Origin: Deltaproteobacteria bacterium | GTDB taxonomy: Bacteria > Desulfobacterota > GWC2-55-46 | Assembly: GCA_016234855.1 (NCBI GenBank) | Contig: JACRNO010000047.1 | Coordinates: 1-41,807, forward strand | Reading direction: 5' to 3' | Length of the DNA stretch: 41,807 bases | Part shown: one piece after another, positions 23,882 to 35,164 of the stretch | Layout of the letters: every line of letters begins with the position of its first letter | Numbering within the stretch: position 1 is the first letter of the stretch | Notes under the pieces: generated by a model | What the model was told of the DNA's origin: nothing | Seen by the model: the letters and a program-made list of their open reading frames with translations, nothing else | Databases searched by the model: none | Position numbers and translations under genes: made by a program

Positions 23882-24505
23882 TTACAGCCGCCCCTTGGTG
23901 GACATTACGCCCTTTATCCTATCGTCCTTTAAAACGGCCATGGCAAGCGCCCTGCCGAGGGCCTTGAATATTGCCTCTATCGAGTGATGGACGTCTTCTC
24001 CGTAATGGAGCGTCACATGCAAGTCGAGACCGGCGCTGTTGGACAGGGCCTTTAAAAATTCCTTTGTCAGGTCGAGGTCGAAGGCGTCGTCTATCGAGCC
24101 GCCCTTTGCCGCGCATATCTTCTTTTTTGCCGAGGCCGCGCCCGACGCGTCAAAGCGCAAGTATGGCCTGTTGCTGATATCGACGACGACGCTCGCCATC
24201 GAGTCCATCATGGGCACGCTCGATGAGGCGCACCTCCTGATGCCGGATGCGTCGCCGAGCGCCGCCTTGAACGCCTCACCAAGCCTGAGGCCCGTGTCCT
24301 CGACCGTGTGATGCAGGTCGACGTCCACGTCGCCTTTGGCCAAGAGCTTCAGGTCAAAGAGCCCGTGCCTGGCGAAGTTCGTCAGCATGTGCGTAAAGAA
24401 CGGAATGGGTGTGTCTATCTCGCCCATGCCGTAGCCGTCGAGCGTAAGCGTAACTGCTATATCCGTCTCTTTCGTCTTGCAGGTTATCGTTCCCGTGCGC
24501 TGCAT
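23882..24505 (-). CDS. hisB: Imidazoleglycerol-phosphate dehydratase HisB
   Basis: ATG 24505 has AGGG 8 bases ahead and starts the family sequence (MQRTGTITCKTKETDIAVTL); an upstream GTG at 24514 overlaps the preceding stop. 207 residues, single-function. The HHTVED metal site and the DVHHSIEAIFKALGRALA site are intact. Unusual: FFTHML where FxDHM is common, PMMDSM where PMDEAL is usual, GEDVHH where GxNxHH is usual. The protein is otherwise full length, so I call it functional but divergent. It is the first his gene after the inserted HEPN cassette. Confidence 0.93.
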   Translation of the reverse strand: MQRTGTITCKTKETDIAVTLTLDGYGMGEIDTPIPFFTHMLTNFARHGLFDLKLLAKGDVDVDLHHTVEDTGLRLGEAFKAALGDASGIRRCASSSVPMMDSMASVVVDISNRPYLRFDASGAASAKKKICAAKGGSIDDAFDLDLTKEFLKALSNSAGLDLHVTLHYGEDVHHSIEAIFKALGRALAMAVLKDDRIKGVMSTKGRL

Positions 24506-24510
24506 AATGG

Positions 24511-25002
24511 TCACCCTATAGCTATACCGGTTTTGAGTTTTTTGAAGGTATTATGTGCGAATGTTGCCCCTTCAATCTTCAATGATGCCTCGTCGGCAAA
24601 TATATTCAGGCCCAATGGTCTGAGGTCAAATTGAACAAAGGCGTTACCAAGCTTGTTGTCTATTCTAAAAATCACACGTCCTTCATGCTCGACGTTATGC
24701 ACATTAGGATTATCGACACTATCAAGTGCTAGCGCATGACCAATCGTGTCATAATATATTTTCACTGTTATAGAGGACGTGTCAACCGTCACATTACCAC
24801 TTTGCACCTTATTGTCTACGACACTAATTGAATTCTTTGCTGGTGGAGAGGTTATTTTGAAGGTGATTAACGGTGGCTCAAAAGGAATCCACTGATTAAT
24901 CATAACTGGTAATTTGTTTTTTATAGAGAATAACGATACTCCAGCAATGGTTATCTGGCTTTCACAATCGTCGAAAATATTTGTGCCTATTGATATCTTC
25001 AT
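24511..25002 (-). CDS. Unknown beta-rich protein, third gene of the cassette in the his operon
   Basis: 163 residues; starts four bases inside the previous gene (ATGA) and ends at the hisB ribosome site (GTGA). The sequence alternates short hydrophobic strands (MKISIGTNIFDDCESQITIA, then ITVKIYYDTIGHALALDS and VIFRIDNKLGNAFVQFDLRP), suggesting an all-beta fold. No motif or signal peptide is seen. Much more AT-rich than hisB. Probably works with the two preceding genes. Confidence 0.6.
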   Translation of the reverse strand: MKISIGTNIFDDCESQITIAGVSLFSIKNKLPVMINQWIPFEPPLITFKITSPPAKNSISVVDNKVQSGNVTVDTSSITVKIYYDTIGHALALDSVDNPNVHNVEHEGRVIFRIDNKLGNAFVQFDLRPLGLNIFADEASLKIEGATFAHNTFKKLKTGIAIG

Positions 25003-25400
25003 GCGGCAACCTTAAGTGGAATATATATGGTATCGTTAATCTCAATGCCGCAATAACTCTCAACGGACGAAAATAATAAAACATGAACTCTCTCTTTTTC
25101 TATGCAAACACCTTCGAGTCTTGGAAAAATATGAGCATAATGCCGCTTCGTTGCTTCAGGCGAGTGAAAAATAAAAAGGCACCTACTGCCAATCATTTCA
25201 TGTATTTTGTCACGAAGGTCTCGTATCCTGGCGAGGAAGTTAAGTTGTTCAGCAAGTGATATATTGAAAACGTCTATAGCGAAGTCGCGGCCATCAAACT
25301 CCCCAATGGAAGTCTTCTCGTCAACCCATCTCAACGGGTAGGTAAAACCGATCGCCTCTTCAAGAAGCCTTATTGTACCAAACCGCATATCGGCATTCAT
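24999..25400 (-). CDS. Unknown protein, second gene of the cassette
   Basis: 133 residues coupled by four-base overlaps on both sides. Contains RDFAIDVFNISLAEQLNFLA and RDLRDKIHEMIGSRCLFIFH, then SPEATKRHYAHIFPRLEGVC. It lacks the GSxxxG-D-D signature of MNT nucleotidyltransferases that often partner HEPN proteins, though the FLARIRDLRDKIHEMIG-type layout is reminiscent of degenerate ones. AT-rich. Function unknown. Confidence 0.6.
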   Translation of the reverse strand: MNADMRFGTIRLLEEAIGFTYPLRWVDEKTSIGEFDGRDFAIDVFNISLAEQLNFLARIRDLRDKIHEMIGSRCLFIFHSPEATKRHYAHIFPRLEGVCIEKERVHVLLFSSVESYCGIEINDTIYIPLKVAA

Positions 25401-25777
25401 TGAGCCCCCTTTTCCTCATCTAAAAAGTGCGCAATAAGCCCATTAGCTAAACTTATCGCTTGCAAGGCCTCATCTTTCTCAATAACATCAGTCTCATAAT
25501 CAGCTTTAATCCTGAGACATCTAAGCCATTCCCATTGTTCTTTTTCAATGTCACCTTCGAGGAGCTTATAATTATAGAGCATATCATGAAAGGTATCATG
25601 CTTCCAATAATAGCCTCCGTCTTTAGCTCTGTCAGGAGGTTTATCGCCATACCGGCCAATCATATACCACCCCATCAAATACAATGCATAATATGCACGC
25701 GACGCGACGGAATCATAGAATGCGTTATCAGCCAGCAGACCCGCTGCCTTTATATTTGCAAGCGCCTTATCCTTCAT
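25397..25777 (-). CDS. HEPN-domain protein, first gene of the cassette
   Basis: Start at ATG 25777, because TTAGGAG overlaps the hisD stop 10 bases upstream; 126 residues. The four-helix HEPN pattern is clear: KDKALANIKAAGLLADNAFY, DSVASRAYYALYLMGWYMIG, HDTFHDMLYNYKLLEGDIEK, IEKDEALQAISLANGLIAHF. The Rx4-6H ribonuclease motif is not evident. HEPN proteins of this kind occur in toxin-antitoxin or RNA-targeting defence pairs. The gene is inserted immediately behind hisD. Confidence 0.7.
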   Translation of the reverse strand: MKDKALANIKAAGLLADNAFYDSVASRAYYALYLMGWYMIGRYGDKPPDRAKDGGYYWKHDTFHDMLYNYKLLEGDIEKEQWEWLRCLRIKADYETDVIEKDEALQAISLANGLIAHFLDEEKGAQ

Positions 25778-25790
25778 CCTTGCACAACTC

Positions 25791-27152
25791 CTAACTTTTC
25801 CCGCTCCTGCGAACGTCAGCGCTAAGGCCGTGCGCCTCAAGCCCTTCGATATCGGCAAACCGTTTGATGTTACGCGCGTGTTTATTTATTGCCGCTGAAG
25901 AAAAATTCATAAAGCTCGTGCGCTTGATGAAATCCTCTACCCCGAGCGGGGATGAAAAACGCGCTGTGGTGCTTGTCGGAAGCGTATGGTTCGGCCCGGC
26001 AAGATAATCGCCTGCGGCAACCGGCGTATTCCTGCCAAGAAATATCGCGCCGGCGTTTGTTATCTGCTCCATCAACTCTTCCGGCTTCTCGACAAAAAGC
26101 TCAAGGTGTTCAGGAGCTAAATAGTTCGATAACTGTGCGGCTTGTTTCAGGGTTTCAACAACACCAATTCGGCCAAAAGAGTTAAGCGACGCTTTAGCTA
26201 TGGCGCGTCTCTTAAATTTCTGCATAATCTTTTCGATTTGCTCGTTAACGGCGACCGCCATCTCTTCCGACGTCGTAATAAGTATGGACGAAGCAAGCTC
26301 GTCGTGCTCGGCCTGCGCCAAGAGGTCGTATGCAAGCCAGAGCGGGTCGCCTTTGCCGTCGTCTATAATCATGATTTCACTTGGCCCGGCAATCATGTCG
26401 ATATCAACGGTGCCGTAGACGAACCGCTTGGCCGTTGCAACGTAGATATTGCCCGGGCCGGTAATCTTGTCTACCTTTGGAATCGTTTCAGTGCCGTGTG
26501 CAAGCGCGGCAATTGCTTGCGCCCCGCCGACGCGAAAAACCCTGTCAACGCCGGCTATCTTTGCGGCGGCCAGGACGTACGGATTAATGCCGTCTTTACC
26601 CGGGGGCGTAACCATTGCAATCATGCCGACGCCCGCGACCTTCGCCGGAATGGCGTTCATAAGGACGCTCGACGGATAGACTGCCTTGCCGCCCGGCACG
26701 TATATGCCTGCGCGGGCAAAAGGGGTCACTCGCATACCCATAACAGTGCCGTCAGCTTCTGTCATTGACCATGAATCCTGAATTTGTTTTTTATGAAATG
26801 CCTCGATGCGCGAAGCGGCAAGCTCAAGCAGAGCGCGGTCTTCTTTTGAAATGGAGTTTAAAGCGGCGTCTATATCTTGCTTGCTGACTTCAATACGGCC
26901 TGTGACATCAACGCCGTCAAATTTTTTTGTATAATTGATAACTGCCGCGTCTTGGCGTTGTAATACTTGACTGAGTATTTCCGTAACTTTTTTATCAATC
27001 TCTAATGAACCCTTATCAACACGGCTACCGGAGTCAAGAATTAAAAGAAAATCCAATAATGAATCACATAACTTGGAAACGGCGAGATTGCCCTTGTCAA
27101 GGGCATCAATGTTTTTAGAGTCATCAGCGGAATTTAATTTGATTATCTTCAT
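25791..27152 (-). CDS. hisD: Histidinol dehydrogenase HisD
   Basis: 453 residues. Family blocks: RAGIYVPGGKAVYPSSVLMN, NPYVLAAAKIAGVDRVFRVG, GAQAIAALAHGTETIPKVDK, ITGPGNIYVATAKR, AGPSEIMIIDD, AEHDE, PNHTLPTS, GLEAHG. It oxidises histidinol to histidine in two NAD-dependent steps at a zinc site. The N-terminal 25 residues (NSADDSKNIDALDKGNLAVS) are longer than usual, and the gene is more AT-rich than hisG and murA, like the cassette following it, so this part of the operon may have been exchanged as a unit. Confidence 0.96.
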   Translation of the reverse strand: MKIIKLNSADDSKNIDALDKGNLAVSKLCDSLLDFLLILDSGSRVDKGSLEIDKKVTEILSQVLQRQDAAVINYTKKFDGVDVTGRIEVSKQDIDAALNSISKEDRALLELAASRIEAFHKKQIQDSWSMTEADGTVMGMRVTPFARAGIYVPGGKAVYPSSVLMNAIPAKVAGVGMIAMVTPPGKDGINPYVLAAAKIAGVDRVFRVGGAQAIAALAHGTETIPKVDKITGPGNIYVATAKRFVYGTVDIDMIAGPSEIMIIDDGKGDPLWLAYDLLAQAEHDELASSILITTSEEMAVAVNEQIEKIMQKFKRRAIAKASLNSFGRIGVVETLKQAAQLSNYLAPEHLELFVEKPEELMEQITNAGAIFLGRNTPVAAGDYLAGPNHTLPTSTTARFSSPLGVEDFIKRTSFMNFSSAAINKHARNIKRFADIEGLEAHGLSADVRRSGKS

Positions 27153-31685: not shown

Positions 31686-32090
31686 TCAAGACATAATCAG
31701 ACAACTCTTTAACTTATCAATTGTTTTTTTGGATTCAATCTTATGTTCCCATATTCGTAAAACTTTCCAATGCTTTTTTTTCAATTCCTGATTCACTTTT
31801 TTGTCTCTTTTTTTGTTTCCCTCTATCTTTTTTATCCAATACTCATTATTGTTTTCTGGCATCCTACATAGCTTCGAATGACCATGCCAAAAGCACCCAT
31901 CCACAAAAACTGCCACTCTTTCTTTTGGAAATACAAAATCTGGCTTTCCAAATAATGGGTATTTTCTCCTCCAACCTTTAACTTTATTTTCTTTAAAAAC
32001 TACAATCATCTTTTGTTCTGTAGACTTATTCCCCGATGAACGGACTTGCGCCATTGTCCATGCTCGCTTTTGCGCACTAATCTTATCCAT
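31686..32090 (-). CDS. vsr: Very short patch repair endonuclease Vsr
   Basis: Start at ATG 32090 (MDKISAQKRAWTMAQVRSSG), since the longer reading begins at TTG inside the preceding gene; 134 residues. Vsr features: NKSTEQKMIVVF, the nuclease strand FGKPDFVFPKERVAVFVDGC, FWHGHSKLC zinc/active-site block, and KKHWKVLRIWEHKI. Vsr nicks T:G mismatches made by deamination of 5-methylcytosine, matching the cytosine-5 methyltransferase of the same island. Confidence 0.93.
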   Translation of the reverse strand: MDKISAQKRAWTMAQVRSSGNKSTEQKMIVVFKENKVKGWRRKYPLFGKPDFVFPKERVAVFVDGCFWHGHSKLCRMPENNNEYWIKKIEGNKKRDKKVNQELKKKHWKVLRIWEHKIESKKTIDKLKSCLIMS

Positions 32091-32095
32091 TTTAT

Positions 32096-32830
32096 TTATT
32101 TCAAAATTTTTATCCAAGACGGATCGAAATTTAACGCTTTCAAAACGTCTTCCTGCTTTAATGTTGGCGCCCTTTGAATCCGAATTGCAAGCCTATCTTT
32201 AGGAACATCCTCAACAATGGTAAACTGTGACCCATGCGGTTGCCATGTAAAACGATGCTCTCCGCTTTTTTTATCAGTTCCCTCAAGATTCTTATTCCGA
32301 TTCCATCTCCACTCAAATTCTTCCATTTGATAACGCACCGTATCAAATTCAAAAGCCGCAAGCTCTAACAGGTCATCTGACTTTATCAAAACAACCGTCC
32401 GTAAATGCTCATACTTAGAACGAATGTCTGAAACTCTTGCATTCCATATTGCAAGCACCATCTCACCTATTGCGATTGGATTCTCTTGAAAAATATTATC
32501 AGCTTCAAAAGAGTACTGCGGCGCATTCCTTCCCGAAATCAATCTAACCTTTTTAGCCTTTGAAGGATTGGCATTCTTAACGGTTTTTGCGCTCCACGCT
32601 GTCCGTTCAAGTAAAACATCATCAAGCCCAACATTAGAAGGCTTCCACCTTCCTCCAATTATCCGCGCAAAAATTTCTTCCCAGTCCGGGCCTTCAAGAC
32701 GGGACGTAACCCGAGTAGCAAGAAGATACACTATTTCTCGCCCAAGGCCTAAATGAAAACCAGCAGGAAAATTATTTAACGGATATGGAGGACGATATTT
32801 TTCTACTGTTCTTAACTTTGGCTCTTTCAT
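32096..32830 (-). CDS. Type II restriction endonuclease (putative)
   Basis: Start chosen at ATG 32830, which overlaps the methyltransferase end by 59 bases; 244 residues. The block VGLDDVLLERTAWSAKTVKN fits a PD-(D/E)XK core (D of LDD, then A-x-K), and VRLISGRNAPQYSF follows. I do not know the recognition sequence. Placement between a cytosine-5 methyltransferase and vsr is the main support for restriction function. Strongly AT-rich, as is the whole island. Confidence 0.75.
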   Translation of the reverse strand: MKEPKLRTVEKYRPPYPLNNFPAGFHLGLGREIVYLLATRVTSRLEGPDWEEIFARIIGGRWKPSNVGLDDVLLERTAWSAKTVKNANPSKAKKVRLISGRNAPQYSFEADNIFQENPIAIGEMVLAIWNARVSDIRSKYEHLRTVVLIKSDDLLELAAFEFDTVRYQMEEFEWRWNRNKNLEGTDKKSGEHRFTWQPHGSQFTIVEDVPKDRLAIRIQRAPTLKQEDVLKALNFDPSWIKILK

Positions 32831-33836
32831 CGTTATATTTTTTCCCCTCTTCAAGCAATCGTAACTGAGGTTCTACCTGATTACGCTGATATTCACAATT
32901 TTTTGATTTACCTAACTGTAACGTCTCAAAAACGCTATCGATAACAGCTTCCGCAACATTGACAGGAAGACTATTACCAGCTTGTTTTCTAGTTTGTGAA
33001 TCATTACAAACAATCTTGAATGACTCTGGGAATCCCTGCAAACGCAGCATTTCTCGCGGAGTCAATCTTCTTTCACCATTTACAAGCAGATAGTTGTATG
33101 AAGCACCAGCACGCAAAGCGCAAGAAAACGGATATGCGCTTATGTGCCCTGCCTTATTCTCATGCCAAATAGTATGTTCTTTGGTGGGCTTCAACACACT
33201 CCACCTTTTATTCTTTATGCGTTCAGACACATAAAACTTTTCAGGAACAACCTTTTCTAAAACATCAGATAAAGGTCTCATGGCTTTACCACCAGTTGGC
33301 CATTGAATATACTTCATTTCTTTAAAGCCTACTATCCAAATCCTTTCTCTTTTTTGAGGCAAACCAAAATTTAACGCATTCAAGATTCTATACTCGGTAT
33401 AATAGCCTAAATCTGATAATTTCTGGAGTATCCTCTTTAATGTTCTTCCTTCATTATGACCTTCAAGTAACTTGACATTCTCTAACACAAAAGCCGTTGG
33501 TTTCTTCGCCTCTAAAATTCTAGCTATATCAAAAAATAATGTTCCTCTTATATCTTCAAAACCCTTCATCTGTCCGATAATACTAAACGGCTGACAAGGA
33601 AAACCCGCCAGAAGTATGTCATAATCGGGAATATCATCGGCATTTACTTTGGTTATATCGCCATCGGGCAACTCTCCAAAATTTGCTTTATATGCTTTTT
33701 GACATTCCTTATCTATATCACTTGAAAAAACACATTCCAATGGAATTTTTCTAACCATTCCTATGGTTTCAATTGCTGACCTGAACCCACCAATGCCACA
33801 AAACAGATCAATAAATTTGATTTTTTTGTGTGCCAT
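32772..33836 (-). CDS. DNA cytosine-5 methyltransferase
   Basis: Start at ATG 33836 (MAHKKIKFIDLFCGIGGFRS); 354 residues. Conserved motifs: I FIDLFCGIGGF, IV LLAGFPCQPFSIIG with the catalytic cysteine, VI VLENVKLL, VIII QKRERIWIVG, X QAGNSLPVNVAEAV. The target-recognition region (about 230-300) should set specificity but cannot be read by eye. It protects host DNA from the adjacent endonuclease. Spacers of 78 bases separate it from rho. Confidence 0.95.
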   Translation of the reverse strand: MAHKKIKFIDLFCGIGGFRSAIETIGMVRKIPLECVFSSDIDKECQKAYKANFGELPDGDITKVNADDIPDYDILLAGFPCQPFSIIGQMKGFEDIRGTLFFDIARILEAKKPTAFVLENVKLLEGHNEGRTLKRILQKLSDLGYYTEYRILNALNFGLPQKRERIWIVGFKEMKYIQWPTGGKAMRPLSDVLEKVVPEKFYVSERIKNKRWSVLKPTKEHTIWHENKAGHISAYPFSCALRAGASYNYLLVNGERRLTPREMLRLQGFPESFKIVCNDSQTRKQAGNSLPVNVAEAVIDSVFETLQLGKSKNCEYQRNQVEPQLRLLEEGKKYNDERAKVKNSRKISSSISVK

Positions 33837-33913
33837 AACTAGGTTATCCGCGTGGAATGTGTTAATTACCAAAATGCCAGAACGGCGCATTATGAAAACC
33901 CTTTACGCCCCGC

Positions 33914-35164
33914 CTACTTGCTCATGGAATCAAGGAAGGCCTTGTTCGACGGGGTATGCGCCATCTTGTCGAGCAGGAACTCCATGGACTCTATGGGGTT
34001 CAGAGGCTGGAGGACCTTCCTGAGTATCCATATCCTGTTGAGCGCTTCCTTGGTAAGCAGCAACTCCTCCTTCCTCGTGCCGCTCTTGTTGATGTCGATG
34101 GCCGGGAATATCCTGCGCTCGGAGAGCTTCCTGTCGAGGACGATTTCCATGTTGCCCGTGCCCTTGAACTCCTCGAATATGACCTCGTCCATGCGGCTGC
34201 CGGTCTCTATGAGCGCGGTCGCGATGATGGTGAGGCTGCCGCCTTCTTCTATATTCCTCGCGGCTCCGAAGAACCTCTTAGGCTTGTGAAGGGCGTTGGA
34301 ATCCACGCCGCCTGAGAGGACCTTGCCGCTCGGGGGCACGACGGTGTTATACGCGCGCGCGAGCCTGGTGATGGAGTCGAGCAGTATGACGACGTCTTTC
34401 TGGTGTTCGACGAGCCTCTTTGCCTTCTCGATGACCATCTCGGCGACCTGCACGTGGCGCTGCGGCGGCTCGTCAAAGGTGGAGCTTATGACCTCGCCCT
34501 TGACAGAGCGCTGCATGTCCGTGACCTCTTCCGGCCGCTCGTCTATGAGGAGGACGAGCATGACGACCTCCGGGTGGTTCTCGGTTATGGAGTTCGCGAC
34601 CTTCTGCAGGAGCATCGTCTTGCCGGCGCGCGGCGGGGAGACGATAAGGCCCCTCTGCCCCTTGCCGATGGGCGTAAAGAGGTCCATTATCCGCGTCGCT
34701 ATGGCGGCGTTCGGCGGGACTTCGAGGTTTATCTTCTCCTGCGGATACAGCGGCGTGAGGTTGTCGAAGAGTATCTTTTCGCGGGCTACTTCCGGGTCTT
34801 CGTAATTGACCTTCTCGACCTTGAGGAGGGCGAAGTAACGCTCGCCCTCTTTCGGCGGCCTTATCTGACCGGAGACGATGTCGCCGGTGCGCAGATTGAA
34901 CCTTCTTATCTGCGATGGCGAGACGTATATGTCGTCCGGTCCGGGCAGATAGTTGTAATCCGGGGCGCGGAGAAAGCCGAAGCCGTCGGGCAGCGTCTCG
35001 AGGACGCCTTCGCCGTATATCAAACCGTTCTGGTCGCTTTGCGATTGAAGGAGCGCGAATATCAAGTCTTGCTTGCGCAGACTCGCCGCGCCTTCGATAT
35101 TATATTTCTTCGCGAGAAGCGTCAACTCGTTTATCTTTTTTTCCTTGAGTTCCTTGAGGTTCAT
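33914..35164 (-). CDS. rho: Transcription termination factor Rho
   Basis: 416 residues: N-terminal Rho_N helices ([20 protein letters not shown]), OSB-type RNA-binding domain ([20 protein letters not shown]), Walker [13 protein letters not shown], Walker [15 protein letters not shown], and the R-loop region [18 protein letters not shown]. The ring helicase ends transcription of untranslated RNA. A promoter at 35366-35394 implies a leader of about 195 bases, consistent with the autoregulated long rho leader known in other bacteria. Confidence 0.97.

Follow-up and report, generated by a model that had tools for sequence, protein, structure and literature searches.

What are three small AT-rich genes, one of them coding for a HEPN protein, doing inside a histidine operon? 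The question was raised by a stretch of 41,807 nucleotides from a Deltaproteobacteria bacterium (contig JACRNO010000047.1), hereafter the window, in which the initial annotation had placed a HEPN gene and two further genes between hisD and hisB. The coordinates and the matches to PF05168, PF00815 and PF00475 confirm this arrangement on the minus strand, with the cassette and the his genes transcribed in the same direction. The features concerned are as follows.

25791-27152, minus strand: hisD, directly upstream of the HEPN gene (PF00815, E 9e-166)
25788-25792, minus strand: Shine-Dalgarno AGGAG of the HEPN gene, read from the sequence and overlapping the hisD stop codon
25397-25777, minus strand: HEPN gene, first gene of the cassette, 126 aa, ATG start
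24999-25400, minus strand: ORF2, second gene of the cassette, 133 aa
24511-25002, minus strand: ORF3, last gene of the cassette, 163 aa
23882-24505, minus strand: hisB, directly downstream of ORF3 (PF00475, E 8e-51)

The three genes form one unit. The HEPN/ORF2 and ORF2/ORF3 junctions are both ATGA overlaps of 4 bases, as first described, and 13 bases separate the hisD stop from the HEPN start. The ribosome site of the HEPN gene had been said to include the hisD stop, and its AGGAG indeed shares two bases with the TAG. An overlap of ORF3 with the start of hisB had also been claimed, and this did not hold: the conserved start of hisB (MQRTG.., which aligns with MARKA/MPRKA of relatives) is the ATG at 24505, 5 bases past the ORF3 stop, the sole start that would overlap ORF3 being an alternative in-frame GTG at 24514. 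Promoter-like sites for the triad number 5, versus 4.4 in shuffles (sd 2.6); without an excess, an internal promoter is unsupported, and the proposed dependence of the cassette on his-operon transcription is supported as an apparent one.

The AT-richness is real as well. The triad has a GC of 41% (GC3 0.38-0.40), versus 58-61% (GC3 0.73-0.80) for hisB, hisH, hisA and hisG, hisD being intermediate in composition (GC 50%, GC3 0.535); measured against the window only, about 5% of the stretches of equal size reach a GC as low as that of the triad. This atypical GC and the overlapping genes support the description of a foreign-looking, tightly coupled module. The stretch of lowest GC is a second AT-rich cassette (31.7-33.9 kb; 31686-33890, minus strand), which is flanked by the L31 gene (31296-31502) and rho (33914-35164). 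It codes for a C5-cytosine DNA methylase (PF00145, E 5e-87), a Vsr endonuclease (PF03852, E 1e-15) and a protein of 252 aa that fits no family, a content that probably makes it a type II restriction-modification set. The matches of one relative (G011) to the window rho and L31 proteins are only about 350 bases apart, which suggests that this second cassette is absent there. As a separate observation, hisD of the window has a divergent N-terminus and a long branch; its identity with hisD of a relative of the same genus (G001) is 62%, hisB of the same pair reaching 81%.

Searches with each protein placed all three genes in one and the same set of 6 genomes out of 147, namely the window and 5 of 146 relatives. 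In these five relatives the gene order is identical and the triad always occupies the hisD-hisB slot, in three genera; its GC there is 37-51%, versus 54-61% for the flanks (window excepted). Among the 27 genomes of the family with a readable hisD-hisB junction, the triad is present in 6 and absent from 21, hisD and hisB being adjacent in most of the triad-less ones. Gaps of 15-316 bases were listed at 14 triad-less junctions besides that of G005 (L055), where the slot holds an unrelated lipoprotein-like open frame, a sign that this junction took insertions more than once. In another genome (G026), 20 residues of the C-terminus of ORF3 remain just before the hisB start (E 1.5e-6), which points to loss of the cassette. 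The triad is thus not conserved as a his-operon component across the lineage (6 of 27 readable family operons). The initial annotation would have been refuted by conserved his-operon members of normal composition, and half of this applies: the triad is a recurrent resident of the slot, present in 6 of 27 operons with one further remnant, and no one-off insertion, but its composition is atypical in all six genomes. The presence and absence of the triad on the hisD tree require at least four changes, and on the triad tree the six his-type sets fall on one side with weak support (78/78). A single gain with later losses at hisD-hisB would be the simplest candidate history. Pairwise dN/dS is 0.13-0.42 in every pair with an estimable dS, which leaves out the HEPN pair L068/L133, and indicates purifying selection on the cassette genes. 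Here and below, statements about every copy, or the only copies, cover samples of 147, 297, 396 and 395 genomes and the named collections; many of these genomes are metagenome assemblies.

When a collection and 396 genomes were queried with ORF2, further sets came to light in Nitrospirota. Intact triads in the same order occur at four different non-his loci in four genomes, adjoining VapB/PIN, UPF0758 and ParE genes (L068), before type II secretion genes (L133), near a type III restriction fragment (L134) and before pyrR and pyr genes (L135, its ORF2 partly masked by N). A clear toxin-antitoxin cluster surrounds only one of the four free-standing copies, and housekeeping genes follow two. The initial annotation had proposed to look for co-occurrence outside his operons, and these intact triads supply it; the triad is thus an independent mobile cassette and no conserved his gene set. 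The recurrence of the three genes with the same gene order, in 5 of 146 relatives and in Nitrospirota, is more than would be expected by chance. Overall, the triad is spread over two phyla and five kinds of locus, with presence and absence within genera.

Decayed copies were found too. L065 and L066 have one deletion in common, by which ORF2 lost its end and ORF3 its greater part, and their HEPN genes carry different lesions, a 5-base frameshift in the former and a stop at codon 26 in the latter; L071 retains an ORF2 fragment alone. Every intact HEPN of the triad type that was found, in Nitrospirota by way of its neighbour ORF2, has intact partners. That the HEPN lesions differ while the deletion is common is as expected if HEPN is harmful without its partners; there are two such cases, both in metagenome-assembled genomes, and the pattern could be plain decay instead.

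The HEPN protein of the window matches PF05168 (HEPN-T) at 30.0 bits (cut-off 22, E 6e-7), that of L068 at 37.8 bits, and a profile search matched it to a "HEPN domain-containing protein" of the PDB (9xbd/9xbc, E 1.7e-5). A scan of genome contigs with the HEPN protein alone gave no confirmed match. A helix with SR.YYA..Y, W58/H60 and R89-x3-D93-Y94 are invariant in the HEPN of all ten intact triads. The catalytic motif Rx4-6H, which is not universal in the HEPN superfamily, is absent from all ten, R89-x3-D-Y standing in its place, and RNase action is uncertain for this reason. The invariant H60 sits elsewhere in the protein, which is the D-for-H arrangement of a 2013 survey: there, PF05168 members with D replacing H and a conserved H elsewhere were described, several of them clustering with restriction-modification operons (PMC3710099). 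Among three close relatives compared (L028 8654-9052, L030 1246-1644 and L031 8727-9122), the HEPN gene of G023 diverges in one central block (about nt 120-240, 40-63% identity) between flanks of mostly about 80-95% identity, which looks like a local allele replacement.

ORF2 has no match in Pfam, PADLOC, NCBIfam, PHROGs or PDB sequences. Its conserved segments are DFDG..IDVF and FIFHS-x-E-x-T, and in the genomes searched all its convincing matches either adjoin HEPN and ORF3 or belong to the decayed remains of such sets; none was found in plasmids, phages or viral contigs. Two further, weak matches, one in G295 (E 0.0075) and one in G489, antisense within a coding gene, were treated as chance.

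Could the triad be a remodelled HEPN-MNT (type VII) module, with ORF2 as a degenerate nucleotidyltransferase-fold antitoxin that would bind HEPN but not AMPylate it, and ORF3 as a later addition? ORF2 does follow a PF05168 HEPN, and this class is paired with MNT in Class II modules, defined in a 2020 study as PF05168/PF01909 pairs of a HEPN without Rx4H and an MNT with GSx10DxD (PMC7641770). The AlphaFold2 model of ORF2, of modest confidence (mean pLDDT 61), has weak fold matches (Foldseek, VIA-align) that are rich in nucleotidyltransferase-fold proteins, among them TdT, Cid1, CutA, TUTs, RelA/SpoT, AadA and the MNT antitoxin 8xeo. However, no Foldseek E-value is better than 0.18 and no Z exceeds 4.6, values inside the stated noise; a profile-profile comparison (hhalign) of ORF2 with ten MNT-type proteins gave a probability of 0.2%; PF01909 matches neither ORF2 nor ORF3 (E up to 5); and GSx10DxD is found neither in the ORF2 alignment nor in ORF3. 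In HEPN-MNT systems the MNT gene lies almost always upstream of the HEPN gene, whereas the triad has HEPN first. The identification of ORF2 as an MNT, hinted at by the weak fold matches and unsupported by the profile comparison, was rejected, and we consider such a remodelled module unlikely. By its motifs, with neither MNT nor Rx4-6H, the triad is not a classical HEPN-MNT toxin-antitoxin.

ORF3 has no match in Pfam, PADLOC or NCBIfam, and its structure model is poor (pLDDT 38), but it matches the phage family phrog_12462 (E 9e-8). The wider, unnamed family has a C-terminal signature, LDLRPLGLNI..L.IGG..[LF]S.N; a profile of the triad ORF3s alone recovers its phage, plasmid, G121 and Septu-linked members (E 8e-12 to 2e-9), and the reverse search, from the wider family to the triad ORF3s, matches too (best shuffle E 2.9). 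In Acinetobacter prophages, a plasmid and Pseudomonas phages such as JBD68, a membrane protein with two helices (as read by eye from the sequences) lies directly upstream of the ORF3 relative. The same partner is found in another viral contig and in G121, which holds the lone ORF3 relative of the 147-genome search. On the Acinetobacter lwoffii plasmid pALWED3.3, the single plasmid with a Septu association, an ORF3 relative stands directly before PtuA1 and PtuB1 (PADLOC E 1.8e-82 and 4e-74), and in G091 a relative is fused as C-terminal domain behind a membrane segment. The superinfection-exclusion genes of Pseudomonas phage Fc02 were considered as such an ORF3 pair and set aside, as nothing in the paper's description links them.

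It may be speculated that the anti-phage systems of one undescribed family share ORF3 as their sensor or adaptor while their killers are exchangeable, and that one such system has here come under the transcription of a core operon for biosynthesis. HEPN with ORF2 would be the killer in Desulfobacterota-type and Nitrospirota genomes; phages and plasmids would use the two-helix membrane protein, and one plasmid PtuA/PtuB. We regard this as a tentative proposal, possible rather than probable.

Members of the ORF3 family occur in other settings as well. Stand-alone proteins are found in one Desulfobacterota-type family (L139, L140, L141 and L142), where a GAF-type regulator gene and a livF-like gene flank them at three of the four loci; others recur in four Nitrospirota genomes (L147-L150; 4.0-4.8 Mb), each time at the same conserved position, adjoining a membrane-transporter-like gene. 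As these relatives stand alone beside housekeeping genes, some members may not be conflict proteins.

How, then, might the cassette work? On balance, and with reserve, we lean towards a mobile three-gene cassette of a toxin-antitoxin or abortive-infection-like kind, in which ORF2 and ORF3 would restrain HEPN until a trigger sets it free. The initial annotation had called the module toxin- or defence-like, a character to which the evidence points indirectly, through the HEPN membership, the link of ORF3 to Septu and phages, the toxin-antitoxin neighbourhood of one copy and the decay pattern. Small overlapping genes with a patchy, mobile distribution are also a general trait of toxin-antitoxin systems, which the triad shares. 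Toxicity, who inhibits whom, the sensing of a trigger and phage defence are what we infer beyond this. Counting against the reading are the absence of Rx4-6H, the clear toxin-antitoxin cluster around just one of the four free-standing copies and the housekeeping genes that follow two, the single plasmid behind the Septu link, the ORF3 relatives that stand alone, the small number of decay cases and the gene order. The cassette would have settled between hisD and hisB in the family, most simply once, and would borrow his transcription and translation there. HEPN would act as the effector, probably as a toxin of the D-for-H PF05168 type that cleaves or binds RNA, and ORF2 and ORF3, made right after it by coupled translation, would keep it inactive. 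ORF2 is the likelier direct antitoxin; ORF3 is the likelier sensor or adaptor, its relatives accompanying other candidate effectors (the membrane protein, the Septu ATPase-nuclease pair). A trigger, probably phage infection, would free HEPN, and growth would stop. In toxin-antitoxin operons the antitoxin gene usually comes first, and the HEPN-first order of 10/10 intact copies is unusual for such pairs; translational coupling would still supply the partners at once.

The patchy distribution, the AT-rich composition and the remnant and truncated copies would also suit a purely selfish addiction cassette, kept by its costly loss and by sharing an essential transcript, with no benefit for the host. 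We find this rather improbable, since the association of the ORF3 family with Septu, phages and plasmids points to a role in phage-host conflict, and the change of partners of ORF3 would be left unexplained. Least probable is a domesticated regulator of the his operon, with which the same hisD-hisB slot in three genera, the tight coupling, the purifying selection and the precedent of MtlR, a HEPN-type repressor of the mannitol operon (PMC3710099), would agree, but which is contradicted by the distribution: 21 of the 27 readable family operons have no triad, one of them keeping a remnant only, and intact copies lie outside his operons in another phylum.

If the mobile toxin-antitoxin or abortive-infection-like reading is true, the cassette is a HEPN module with non-MNT partners, and bears on the action and the control of PF05168 HEPNs that lack Rx4-6H. 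Through the sequence of the ORF3 family, HEPN cassettes can be linked to a Septu operon and to orphan gene pairs of phages, and one experiment on ORF3 could therefore inform several unknown families. Biosynthetic operons were already known to take up HEPN modules: the lysine operon of Thermus thermophilus HB8 has an inserted MNT-HEPN module that is missing from that of HB27 (PMC2701414). Here, what would be a conflict-type module occupies one slot of such an operon in each of three genera, where searches centred on defence islands would miss it.

The statement that no described system has this gene set stands, with no counterpart in Pfam, PADLOC, NCBIfam or the literature searched, in which (few subscription journals being covered) neither the HEPN-ORF2-ORF3 set nor the ORF3 family was found to be described. 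Four known systems come near it. HEPN-MNT (HepT-MntA, type VII; Class II, PF05168/PF01909) likewise forms small, mobile and patchily distributed operons that include a PF05168 HEPN; the triad differs from it by having no MNT, three genes and HEPN first. Septu (PtuA/PtuB) is approached through the ORF3 relative directly before PtuA1/PtuB1 on pALWED3.3; the triad, however, is without ATPase and HNH nuclease, the candidate effector being HEPN instead, and PtuA/PtuB had no PADLOC match among the window proteins. With the phage pair phrog_12462 and phrog_12702, the triad shares a distant phrog_12462 member, ORF3, and genes that abut or overlap, but the partner in phages is the two-helix membrane protein rather than HEPN and ORF2. 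The MtlR-type HEPN repressors, finally, resemble it as HEPN proteins of a metabolic operon that lack Rx4-6H in a subset, yet MtlR occurs with the genes that it regulates, whereas the triad cassette occurs at unrelated loci.
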